From the IMG/VR virus record IMGVR_UViG_3300022752_000024, positions 62,001 through 126,000 of that record: a stretch of DNA of 64,000 nucleotides; one strand, 5' to 3'. The stretch comes from a virus. The position numbers and the translations under genes are program-made. This document shows, piece by piece, positions 32,104-62,060 of this stretch (positions are counted from its first letter, which is position 1; every line of letters starts with the position of its first letter). Under the pieces are notes generated by a model. The model saw nothing but the letters and a program-made list of their open reading frames with translations, had not been told where the DNA came from and made no database searches.

Positions 32104-32251
32104 ATTCTTTTAGTGTCCTTATTAATTCATCAATATCTTCATCATGCATAAAAATGGTAGAAGAAAATCTAAGACCATCTTCTCTTTCATCATCAATCTT
32201 AGTTAACAAAAACTGTTTACTGCCATATGGTGATATTTTAAATCTTATCAT
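32060..32251 (-). CDS. Hypothetical protein (63 aa)
   Basis: This is a small charged protein (MIRFKISPYGSKQFLLTKID, then FMHDEDIDELIRTLKEYG) with a beta-then-helix appearance. Its ATG overlaps the stop of the endolysin gene, and its 3' end overlaps the gp33 start by 44 bases. I know of no function. Confidence 0.6.
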   Translation of the reverse strand: MIRFKISPYGSKQFLLTKIDDEREDGLRFSSTIFMHDEDIDELIRTLKEYGNERGNKRFQSVD

Positions 32252-32778
32252 GTGTTTGTATAAAATATGTGATTACCAATTTGCATTACAACATGCTTTT
32301 TATTCCAACCAGGACTAACATACTTTGCATGGTAAAACATTGCTTGAGTTCTAGCTAGTTTAACATGAGCGATAGGTTGTGTCAATGCTTTCATTGCAAT
32401 ATATTTGGATTCTTCCCAAAGATAGGCATTCTTTGCCGCAGGAACAGTCGTACATGTCCAACTAAACTGACAGACACTTTTGCCATTATAATTAGTTTTT
32501 TGATATACCACACCACATATGTTTACTGGATATTTACCTGAATTAGTTCGATTGATTGTCACCTGTGCTACTGCAAGCTTTCCTTCAAAAGATTCAGATC
32601 CTGCTTCATAGTAAATATTCTTAGCTAAACATTCCATTTCTTTGCTCATGTGTACTTGAATATCAGTATTGATATCTTGTCTCACTTGATATGGAAACGA
32701 ATAGATAAGAATTACAGTAAAAAATAATATAGTAGCTATAAGCAGGTTGACACTTGTGAATATTTTATTTTTAAGCAT
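32248..32778 (-). CDS. SleB-type cell wall hydrolase (endolysin) with N-terminal membrane anchor
   Basis: Residues ~8-30 (FTSVNLLIATILFFTVILIY) form one hydrophobic segment, either an uncleaved anchor or signal-arrest-release type. Residues ~48-176 match the Hydrolase_2/SleB family: ECLAKNIYYEAGSESFEGKL with the candidate catalytic Glu, AVAQVTINRTNSGKYP, QFSWTC and MFYHAKYVSPGW. The family cleaves glycan strands of peptidoglycan. Such membrane-tethered endolysins can reach the periplasm without a holin channel. A strong AAGGAG site precedes the ATG, and a UUCG hairpin lies in its leader at 32800-32817. It is the likely lysis enzyme of this phage. Confidence 0.85.
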   Translation of the reverse strand: MLKNKIFTSVNLLIATILFFTVILIYSFPYQVRQDINTDIQVHMSKEMECLAKNIYYEAGSESFEGKLAVAQVTINRTNSGKYPVNICGVVYQKTNYNGKSVCQFSWTCTTVPAAKNAYLWEESKYIAMKALTQPIAHVKLARTQAMFYHAKYVSPGWNKKHVVMQIGNHIFYTNT

Positions 32779-32957: not shown

Positions 32958-33032
32958 TTAGCGATTTGCAATATACATGGAAATTTCAAAACCAAAACGC
33001 ATATCTTGTGCTGAAGGTGTAGTCCATTTCAT
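32958..33032 (-). CDS. pqqA: PqqA, peptide precursor of pyrroloquinoline quinone (24 aa)
   Basis: The gene has ATG 33032, an AAGGAGA ribosome site 8 bases ahead and a TAA stop, and encodes 24 residues. The peptide begins MKWTTP and ends RFGFEISMYIANR, lining up end to end with bacterial PqqA (pattern W-T-x-P-x3-D-[LM]-R-x-G-F-E-x3-Y-x-A-N-R). Glu16 and Tyr20 keep the E-x3-Y spacing; these are the two residues cross-linked by PqqE on PqqD to become PQQ. No pqqBCDE gene is in the window, so host enzymes would be needed. It lies between the endolysin and the tmRNA, with a TATAAT box at 33075-33080 (minus strand) but no good -35. Confidence 0.9.
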   Translation of the reverse strand: MKWTTPSAQDMRFGFEISMYIANR

Positions 33033-33124
33033 ATCATTCTCCTTGATTTGTCATAGCAAAATACTACGACTATAATTATATATGCATAGTGTAACACGAA
33101 TGTAATAATTAAAACCATTAAAAT

Positions 33125-33430
33125 GCAAGGTGATTGGGTAATAAGGACACCTTGCGAAACCCCAAGAGAATTAAGCCGCTAGGCGTTCATCTCCAAAATA
33201 TGCATCGTTTGCATTTACTTGTTTTGCTCGGATTACGTCCGTCGCCTTTCGTGTTGCCTTCTCTATTATCTCACCCTGTCGAAACCAGGTCATCCCCATC
33301 AGAAGTACACAATCCCCGCTAGAGCCCTAAGAGGTTTCTTTCATCTAGGACAACTATGCACTTCTGGTGGAGATGGAGGGAATCGAACCCTCGTCCAGAA
33401 TGCCTTCACTTTGAAGGAATTACAACAATT
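33125..33430 (-). ncRNA. ssrA: Circularly permuted (two-piece) tmRNA
   Basis: On the minus strand the acceptor piece comes first: T-arm GAGGG-TTCGATT-CCCTC, acceptor strand CATCTCC, then A-CCA ending at 33365. A 67-nt intervening segment (33298-33364) follows. The coding piece then begins at 33297 with GGGGATGACCTGGTTTCGAC, a tmRNA 5' signature. GGGGAUG pairs with CAUCUCC over 7 bp with G3-U70 as the third pair, the alanine identity element. The tag frame at 33171-33212 encodes ANDAYFGDERLAA-stop. The intervening segment has a 9-bp helix (AGAAGUGCA with UGUACUUCU) extending the acceptor stem for processing. The hairpin GCAAGGTG/CACCTTGC (33125-33155) probably ends it. The 5' end is approximate. 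Confidence 0.93.
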
Positions 33431-33531
33431 CTAATTCTTGTATTTTATTTATTCATTGTAGCTATACAATAACCAAATACAAATGGATATCAAACAACCA
33501 ATAGCTAACCCGATACAGAATCCAGTTATGT

Positions 33532-33560
33532 ATTGTATCATTCTTTATTGATTATGTCAA
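33532..33560 (-). promoter_or_regulatory. Consensus sigma70 promoter of the tmRNA gene
   Basis: TTGACA (33555-33560) and TACAAT (33532-33537) are separated by 17 bp, placing the start of transcription near 33525, about 95 bases before the tmRNA acceptor piece. A 30-codon reading frame at 33449-33541 begins inside this -10 box and is therefore unlikely to be translated from this transcript. Confidence 0.8.
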
Positions 33561-33563
33561 TGC

Positions 33564-34229
33564 TTATTTCGGTGTATTTTGGCGATAATACGTAATTACA
33601 TCAATTAAACCATCAATATGATCTTTGACTTTTTCTTTGAAGATTATTGGAGCAGAATCTTTTACTGCCATAATGATAACCAGATTATCAATTGGAGTAC
33701 CAATTAATTCTTCATACATCGAAGCATAAGCAGTAGTTTGCCAAAAATAGTCTAAAACATCTTCTTTTCTTTTTACTTTACTAGATGTTTTAAAGTCTAT
33801 TACAGAAAGTTCACCTTCATACTCTGCTATACAGTCAACACGACCTGCCATACCTAAAGTCTTAGACCACAATGCTTGTTCTTGATAATGAATGTTATCT
33901 ATGTTGTCTAAGAAAGGTTTAATAGAGAGAAAATACTCAACAGCATCAGGCATGATGCCTCTCATATAATATGGTTCATTGTTGAGATAATTCTCACAGA
34001 TAGTATGAACATTGGTACCTCTAGATGTAGCTTGTTTGGAGATTTTATTGGCTTCTTCTTCGCCAACTCTTGCTCTCCACTCCATGATAGCTTTTTTCTT
34101 TTTGGCTCCTACTACAGTGGTTACTGATGGCAACTTAGTACCATCAGGTAACTTGTAATATCTTTTCCCATCAGGAAAAGTTTCTGATTTTAAATCTTCT
34201 AGTTGTTTTGGTGGGCAATATGTAAACAT
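33564..34229 (-). CDS. PD-(D/E)XK family nuclease (221 aa)
   Basis: The core GMAGRVDCIAEYEGELSVID followed by FKTSSKVK (residues ~125-155) is the PD-(D/E)XK pattern of RecB/Cas4-like exonucleases: Asp in GRVD and D-x-K in IDFK. An upstream helix with TSRGTNVHTICENYL supplies the conserved His/Glu region, and YFWQTTAYASMYEEL the Q-x3-Y motif. Such nucleases are common in T4-like marine phages and probably act in recombination or host DNA breakdown. Its stop lies next to the tmRNA promoter. Confidence 0.8.
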   Translation of the reverse strand: MFTYCPPKQLEDLKSETFPDGKRYYKLPDGTKLPSVTTVVGAKKKKAIMEWRARVGEEEANKISKQATSRGTNVHTICENYLNNEPYYMRGIMPDAVEYFLSIKPFLDNIDNIHYQEQALWSKTLGMAGRVDCIAEYEGELSVIDFKTSSKVKRKEDVLDYFWQTTAYASMYEELIGTPIDNLVIIMAVKDSAPIIFKEKVKDHIDGLIDVITYYRQNTPK

Positions 34230-35073: not shown

Positions 35074-35081
35074 TATTTATA
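35074..35081 (-). promoter_or_regulatory. T4-type late promoter box TATAAATA
   Basis: An exact TATAAATA on the minus strand overlaps the phoH stop codon and lies 28 bases before the ATG of the 126-aa fibre-type protein. Spacing and downstream gene class fit a late promoter. Confidence 0.5.
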
Positions 35082-35775
35082 AACCTAATTTTTCTTTTTG
35101 TGTAATATATTCTTTCACAAAACCGCTTCGAACAATGTCATCAGTACAAAACTTAATGTGTCCTACATTTTTAATATTTTCTAGAATTCTCACCGCATCA
35201 TGCAATCCAGACTTCTCTTTCTTACTATTTAGATCGTTTTGATTATAATCTCCACATAATATGAACCTACAATTCTCACCTACACGAGTTAATACCGTAT
35301 CGATTTCGTGGAAAGTAGCTGACTGAAATTCATCAAACACAATAATACAGTTTCTAAATGTCAATCCACGAAGAAAGCTAGTAGTTTGAAACTCTATGAT
35401 TTCCTTATTTACTAAGAAATGCCAAGCATCGCCTCGACCAATTAGTTCATTAACGATATTCATGTAAGGTTCTTGATATATCTTAGCCTTTTCTTCAAGT
35501 GTTCCTGGTACAAAACCTAAATCTCTAGAAGGTACTGCCGAACGGATAATAATTATTCTATTATAATAAGAACTTTCATCAAGGAGTTCACTCAATCCTA
35601 AATACATCGCAAGAAACGATTTACCTGATCCTGCTGATCCAGATAATACAAGATTGTTACCTTCATCATATGCTAAAAAAGCTTTTTCTTGGTTCTCTGT
35701 TAGCGGTTTAATTTTCTTCAGAGTGAAATGTTGTGATTTGGCTTCTGCTGAGGCTGTTCTTTTTTTTGTTGCCAA
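35077..35775 (-). CDS. phoH: PhoH-like P-loop ATPase
   Basis: Walker A (GSAGSGKS), the PhoH signature IIIIRSAVPSRDLGFVPGT, Walker B (CIIVFDEFQSA) and the sensor region FILCGDYNQND are all present. PhoH-type ATPases are frequent in marine phages, and their substrate is not settled. I place the start at TTG 35775 because AAAGGAG ends 6 bases before it. The in-frame ATG at 35793 has that site downstream of it and overlaps the previous gene's stop. From TTG the protein has 232 residues. Confidence 0.88.
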   Translation of the reverse strand: MATKKRTASAEAKSQHFTLKKIKPLTENQEKAFLAYDEGNNLVLSGSAGSGKSFLAMYLGLSELLDESSYYNRIIIIRSAVPSRDLGFVPGTLEEKAKIYQEPYMNIVNELIGRGDAWHFLVNKEIIEFQTTSFLRGLTFRNCIIVFDEFQSATFHEIDTVLTRVGENCRFILCGDYNQNDLNSKKEKSGLHDAVRILENIKNVGHIKFCTDDIVRSGFVKEYITQKEKLGL

Positions 35776-35786
35776 TTGTTTCTCCT

Positions 35787-36062
35787 TTACCATTCACGAG
35801 GCATTTTAGTTTTGTGTCCTGCTTTTACAGTATTACCAGGTACTCTTTCTTTAATTCTACCAATAACTTCTCTTTCAAACCGTGCATCGGGTTGTCCTAT
35901 ACCAGGAACAGACATACGCATACCATCACCTAATATAGGTGCTTCGTCTATGTATCTTTCTAAATGGGAATTATTGGACTTAAAATCATCATACTGAGAG
36001 ATTCTCATTGTATGTTCTTCAAGTGTATTCGTTTCTTTATTTAAGAATGCGTAAGTTGGCAT
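35787..36062 (-). CDS. Hypothetical protein (91 aa), FmdB-like N-terminus without cysteines
   Basis: The start MPTYAFLNKETNTLEEHTMR then ISQYDDF recalls the FmdB/zinc-ribbon family, but the two Cys pairs of that family are absent. The second half is basic and polar (PDARFEREVIGRIKERVPGN). Versions of this protein occur in T4-like marine phages. Function unknown. Confidence 0.65.
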   Translation of the reverse strand: MPTYAFLNKETNTLEEHTMRISQYDDFKSNNSHLERYIDEAPILGDGMRMSVPGIGQPDARFEREVIGRIKERVPGNTVKAGHKTKMPREW

Positions 36063-61930: not shown

Positions 61931-62060
61931 TCTCGTCTTCTTTCGTTTGTTGTTTTTTTCTTTCGATTGGCGGTGGAAAATATGGTTCTATTACATAATG
62001 ATTAGCACCCCACCATCCGAATGCACTAAAAAATCCATACAATAATAACTCCAATACCAT
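61896..62060 (-). CDS. Small membrane protein (54 aa)
   Basis: ATG 62060 to TGA 61896. A membrane segment (MVLELLLYGFFSAFGWWGAN) is followed by YVIEPYFPPPIE and a charged tail. The GFFSAFGWWGAN start is one I have seen in T4-like marine phages between nrd genes. The tail overlaps the nrdB start by 35 bases. Function unknown. Confidence 0.7.
   Translation of the reverse strand: MVLELLLYGFFSAFGWWGANHYVIEPYFPPPIERKKQQTKEDENDKKNTATEVK

Follow-up and report, generated by a model that had tools for sequence, protein, structure and literature searches.

Known pqqA genes of cells and viruses

PqqA is the precursor peptide of PQQ, and one molecule is consumed for each PQQ made, whereas PqqB–E are catalytic. 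In the pathway, PqqD/PqqE cross-link Glu16 and Tyr20 of the peptide, followed by the action of a protease, PqqB, and PqqC. As a rule pqqA leads a pqqBCDE operon, but this position does not define it, and orphan copies occur in cells too. Methanol and other alcohols enter the metabolism of marine and freshwater methylotrophs through PQQ dehydrogenases.

Methylophilaceae have 3–12 pqqA copies and typically one of the other pqq genes (PMC4109929), showing that substrate dosage alone is selected in cells too. Purified PqqA combined with Gluconobacter cell extract yielded PQQ, in work cited in PMC9851590. In Acetobacter, addition of the whole pqqABCDE increased PQQ eightfold, versus 29% for pqqAB alone (PMC7936290); without infection, the substrate therefore does not always limit PQQ production.

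The presence of pqqA in a virus, which the preliminary description of this locus suspected might already be known, has been on record since 2020, when PqqA and methanol dehydrogenase were reported from one Lake Baikal methylotroph virus population, VP_266 (PMC7678222). The same study stated that phage P19250A has none of the genes reported for VP_266. In 2026, pqqA was listed among virus-encoded phosphorus-cycle genes (PMC13188868). As of 2023, Venkman, MEP301, and Melnitz were the only OM43 phages known and belonged to distinct groups, to which MEP401/402 were added as a new lineage (PMC10580990). The published list of Melnitz auxiliary genes omits pqqA (PMC9004378). The open-licence literature searched contained no report of pqqA in all isolated Methylophilaceae phages, of wide viral carriage of pqqA without methanol dehydrogenase, or of an ssrA-pqqA cassette; the breadth of carriage and the cassette described below appear to be new.

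An intact orphan pqqA gene behind ssrA

The window (the whole 64,000-nucleotide stretch analyzed here) covers positions 62001–126000 of a 142,881-bp IMG/VR virus record. The features around pqqA, in window coordinates, are as follows.

32248..32778, minus strand: endolysin, the neighbor downstream of pqqA
33032 down to 32958, minus strand: pqqA, 24 codons plus TAA, encoding the PQQ precursor peptide MKWTTPSAQDMRFGFEISMYIANR with Glu16 and Tyr20 kept
33033..33045, minus strand: ribosome-binding site of pqqA (AAGGAG, 6 nt ahead of the ATG)
33080..33457, minus strand: ssrA, a permuted (two-piece) tmRNA of betaproteobacterial type with the tag ANDAYFGDERLAA (ARAGORN; Rfam RF01850, 148 bits; RF04321, 153.4 bits)
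33532..33560, minus strand: candidate sigma-70-like promoter, TTGACA-17-TACAAT with TG before the -10 box (consensus match only), about 100 nt upstream of ssrA
33564..34229, minus strand: exonuclease (phrog_298), a neighbor that served to fetch relatives
35077..35793, minus strand: PhoH-like protein (T4-like core), a neighbor

The preliminary description had proposed a 24-codon PqqA with a strong ribosome site, and this proposal held up. The peptide (M1-K-W3-T-T-P6-S-A-Q-D-M-R12-F-G14-F-E16-I-S-M-Y20-I-A-N-R24) matches Pfam PF08042 over the full model (positions 1–19; 31.9 bits, E-value 1.3e-7; curated cut-off 21.1 bits) and the NCBIfam equivalog model TIGR02107, also over its full length (1–21; 31.8 bits; curated cut-off 20 bits), thus passing both cut-offs. 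It contains the E-x3-Y pair (Glu16 and Tyr20) whose residues are joined into PQQ; position 18 is Ser, an unusual departure from the Thr normally found there. The gene has the form expected of pqqA (about 22–30 codons, own start and ribosome site), and the bases directly 5' of its ATG are caAGGAGaatgatATG. On the plus strand, positions 32958–33032 read as interrupted nonsense, and the ORF lies on the minus strand. This ORF is the only PqqA match in the whole 142.9-kb record; a search of PDB sequences with the peptide returned no relatives. At the level of sequence, the ORF is thus confirmed as PqqA.

The record is a genuine virus genome, and T4-like virus genes surround pqqA, namely those for the exonuclease, PhoH, endolysin, gp59 helicase loader, single-strand binding protein, RNase H, ribonucleotide reductase, and proteins of the baseplate and tail. 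The adjacency to ssrA noted in the preliminary description is real, with ssrA directly upstream of pqqA across a gap of 47 bases. The sigma-70-like site is a candidate promoter of both genes; a conserved promoter upstream of ssrA was sought across relatives and was not found, a strong match being present only in the window phage and one relative (L256). The window pqqA does not head a pqqBCDE operon. No pqqB–E genes were detected by tblastn over the whole 142,881-bp record, including pqqE, and the record has no PQQ beta-propeller protein or PQQ dehydrogenase. Any processing of the peptide therefore needs host enzymes, as had been supposed from the lone precursor.

Host of the window phage

The nearest counterparts of the window PqqA are Burkholderiales types (xxTPxxxDMRFGFEITMYIANR), from which it is three to four residues apart; it is further from the Methylophilaceae type (MWTxPAATEMRFGFEVTMYVMNK). 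The best lineage-specific Rfam family for its tmRNA is the betaproteobacterial one. Among eight bacterial genomes chosen for similar or Methylophilaceae-type PqqA, seven contain PQQ alcohol dehydrogenases. Based on the closeness of PqqA to Burkholderiales, the tmRNA type, and these dehydrogenases, the host is probably a PQQ-making betaproteobacterium, and we assume that it has pqqB–E. Assignment to a family by tmRNA was attempted in 399 Burkholderiales genomes, in which the best matches were partial and mostly 76–85% identical, so that no family can be named; the exact core pattern of the window PqqA was absent from the same genomes. The preliminary description had seen the gene as fitting a host dependent on PQQ methanol dehydrogenases. 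The betaproteobacterial tmRNA and a PqqA nearest to Burkholderiales rather than Methylophilaceae types lend this idea no support; instead of an obligate methylotroph, the phage may infect a burkholderial bacterium that uses PQQ.

pqqA in isolated phages

A tblastn search of 50,697 phage records with the 24-residue peptide matched 12 records. Ten of these comprise four Melnitz records, P19250A, Venkman, MEP301, MEP401, MEP402, and an uncultured podovirus from a spring. The other two, filed as 'Acinetobacter phage MD-2021a' (CAKLQF020000010.1 and CAKLQH020000055.1; loci L014 and L015), contain polyphosphate kinase and a pqqABCDE operon; they are misfiled bacterial chromosome and were not counted. 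The surmise that related phages might carry the gene proved right in that all nine records of isolated Methylophilaceae phages, representing about five groups, have an orphan pqqA, i.e., it is present in every isolated Methylophilaceae phage examined. Each phage frame that was read (for Melnitz, one of the four records) is complete with a start, a ribosome site, and a stop of its own. Cultured pairs of phage and host exist for Melnitz and Venkman (OM43 strain H5P1) and for P19250A (an LD28 host).

None of the ten phage records annotates pqqA, and five have no feature at the locus. In Melnitz (MZ577097.1, 76100–76195; L007) and the spring phage ctXG6705 (MW202481.1, 2067–2195; L011), a hypothetical ORF is annotated antisense to pqqA and is probably miscalled. 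P19250A does carry an unannotated pqqA, which corrects the published statement that it lacks the gene (PMC7678222).

pqqA in environmental viruses

When a degenerate DNA pattern for R-F-G-F-E-[VI]-x-M-Y was run on IMG/VR, it matched at least 120 stretches, and all 120 of the matches listed are PqqA-like ORFs with a start and an intact stop, most of them with a clear ribosome site. A control with the same codons in permuted order gave no IMG/VR matches. This difference, and the fact that the tblastn carriers are nearly all Methylophilaceae phages, exclude a chance match on sequence grounds. A gammaproteobacterial-type pattern added 48 IMG/VR loci and an alphaproteobacterial-type pattern one. 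No pqqB, C, D, or E was found near the 169 IMG/VR loci (at least 120 plus 49), an absence that is local given partial contigs; the same queries were positive at 39 of 119 bacterial pqqA loci.

Carriers have one pqqA copy each and include contigs of 356, 340, 217, 166, and 148 kb. When the loci were clustered by the proteins they share, no common proteins were detectable around pqqA between Melnitz, MEP401/402, the main cloud, and three singletons. When three shared hits were required, 25 groups resulted, a number inflated by partial loci. PQQ alcohol dehydrogenase was absent from 36 of the 37 other full records searched (eight of these records without pqqA).

Several viral contigs have features of their own. 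The 48 gammaproteobacterial-type contigs (L335–L382; up to 340 kb) form a second viral orphan PqqA family, (W)[TS]KPTY[EQ]K[IL]RLGFEVTMYFK, with no pqqB–E nearby and no close match among isolate phages; its host is probably not Methylophilaceae. One contig (L383:2754–2782) has a Methylobacterium-type PqqA (MKWSAPIVQEVCVGMEVTSYESAEIDTFN). Another (L396; G005:C1:30001-50000; IMGVR_UViG_3300025120_009955, 72 kb) carries pqqA with a full-length PQQ alcohol/methanol dehydrogenase, a formate-dehydrogenase-like molybdopterin subunit (946 aa), a SoxY-SoxZ fusion, a curlin-repeat protein, GroEL, and ribonucleotide reductase, a C1/sulfur auxiliary gene set that is unusually broad and resembles that of Baikal VP_266.

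Proposed role in substrate replenishment

Considering the identity and intactness of the gene, the lack of other pqq genes, the purifying selection described below, its carriage by unrelated phages, and its position behind ssrA, we regard it as very probable that the phage pqqA is a functional auxiliary metabolic gene that replenishes the substrate of host PqqB–E after host shut-off. The gene would have been acquired from a PQQ-making proteobacterium, and the expressed peptide would be a single-use substrate for host PqqD/PqqE, the protease, PqqB, and PqqC. Catalytic host PqqB–E would outlast the shut-off; once host transcription stops, PqqA would be the first component to run out because one peptide is destroyed per PQQ while the enzymes persist. 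One small phage gene would then restore the supply and allow PQQ synthesis to continue during infection, maintaining periplasmic PQQ-dependent oxidation of alcohols and methanol (or sugars) and the supply of electrons, to the presumed benefit of the phage. It is reasonable to infer a raised flux to PQQ from the phage gene. The multiplied pqqA copies of Methylophilaceae and the conversion of added PqqA by Gluconobacter extract fit this role, and the Acetobacter result tells against an absolute form of it.

Conservation, selection, and alternative explanations

To follow the gene without ascertainment on pqqA, 80 relatives were fetched through the neighboring exonuclease. For 58 of them, at least 3 kb of downstream sequence was available; pqqA is present in 19 of these and missing near the exonuclease in 39, and long records of 156–176 kb lack it altogether, showing that pqqA is not essential in the window lineage. 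The tmRNA end and pqqA are less than about 80 nt apart in 15 of the 19 loci that contain both genes, and about 770 nt apart in the remaining four. The ssrA-pqqA order is thus conserved in the window lineage, with patchy loss or gain. The tmRNA tags of relatives (L310, L324, L329, L331, L332, and others) are diverse (ANDAYFGDERLAA, ANDESYRIAA, ANDEKFALAA, ANDSSYEYALAA, and the long VKTKTNVNANDSSYEYALAA), which suggests rapid turnover or different hosts.

Codon changes in the window lineage comprise 9 synonymous, against 4.5 expected, and 11 nonsynonymous (simulation P 0.022), and pN/pS is 0.33; the viral set gave 0.17, a value biased low by its ascertainment by pattern. These values point to purifying selection on pqqA and bear out the synonymous-site conservation that the preliminary description asked for, although so short a gene gives a modest signal within the window lineage by itself.

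An orphan precursor without processing enzymes could also act as a decoy or inhibitor that binds PqqD/PqqE and is poorly processed, or that overloads the pathway, thereby slowing or redirecting PQQ-dependent metabolism; the Ser18 variant of the window phage would suit such a peptide. In a decoy, one would expect loss or alteration of the cross-linked residues, whereas all full-length relatives fetched by way of the exonuclease retain Glu16 and Tyr20, and the window sequence lies within the range of cellular substrates. We therefore consider a decoy unlikely.

It is more improbable still that pqqA is a functionless passenger. Host genomes do offer multiple scattered copies for capture, many of them orphans, and the gene is patchily present among relatives, but purifying selection, the conserved ribosome sites and stops, the repeated carriage in unrelated phage groups, and the conserved order behind ssrA all argue against this explanation. 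The most doubtful alternative, a phage role outside PQQ (e.g., serving a different radical-SAM RiPP enzyme as its substrate, or acting as a tmRNA-linked regulator), would fit the tight ssrA linkage in the window lineage, but Melnitz and the small phages have other genes next to pqqA, the window record contains no PqqE-like gene, and the sequence constraint is that of PqqA.

Implications of replenishment by phages

If phage pqqA replenishes the host pathway, PQQ synthesis is predicted to continue in infected cells after host shut-off. The distribution of the gene suggests that phages commonly sustain the alcohol oxidation of their hosts by topping up its raw material. On balance, we favor the broader idea that phages of PQQ-dependent proteobacteria carry an orphan pqqA almost universally and by convergence. 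Very different phages would then independently carry only the single-turnover substrate, overlooked as gene callers drop such short genes. If true, phages would have a general way of taking over host metabolism in which the consumable of a RiPP pathway is supplied instead of an enzyme. The unannotated pqqA genes also show that functional genes of fewer than 30 codons are systematically missed in phage annotation.

Comparison with known systems

The window peptide resembles cellular PqqA (PF08042, TIGR02107; Burkholderiales and Methylophilaceae) in length, in the W-x-x-P motif, in Glu16/Tyr20, in its full-length HMM match, and in the shared core R-x-G-F-E-[VI]-x-[ML]-Y. Unlike its cellular counterparts, the gene is phage-encoded, lacks pqqB–E, adjoins a tmRNA gene, and has Ser18. 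The T4-like pelagimyophage HTVC008M (SAR11) shares the PhoH-exonuclease order with the window phage, and a search of it for PqqA found none. VP_266 (PMC7678222) is likewise T4-like, is attributed to Methylophilaceae, and has pqqA as an auxiliary gene. Its pairing of pqqA with methanol dehydrogenase recurs in G005, whereas the window record lacks the dehydrogenase, which only one of the 37 other records searched has. The Methylophilales phage Melnitz (PMC9004378) is, like the window phage, a T4-like myophage with pqqA and a two-piece tmRNA. Its tmRNA is alphaproteobacterial according to its authors (PMC9004378) and its pqqA adjoins a tRNA gene and a baseplate gene, whereas the window tmRNA is betaproteobacterial and the window pqqA adjoins ssrA.
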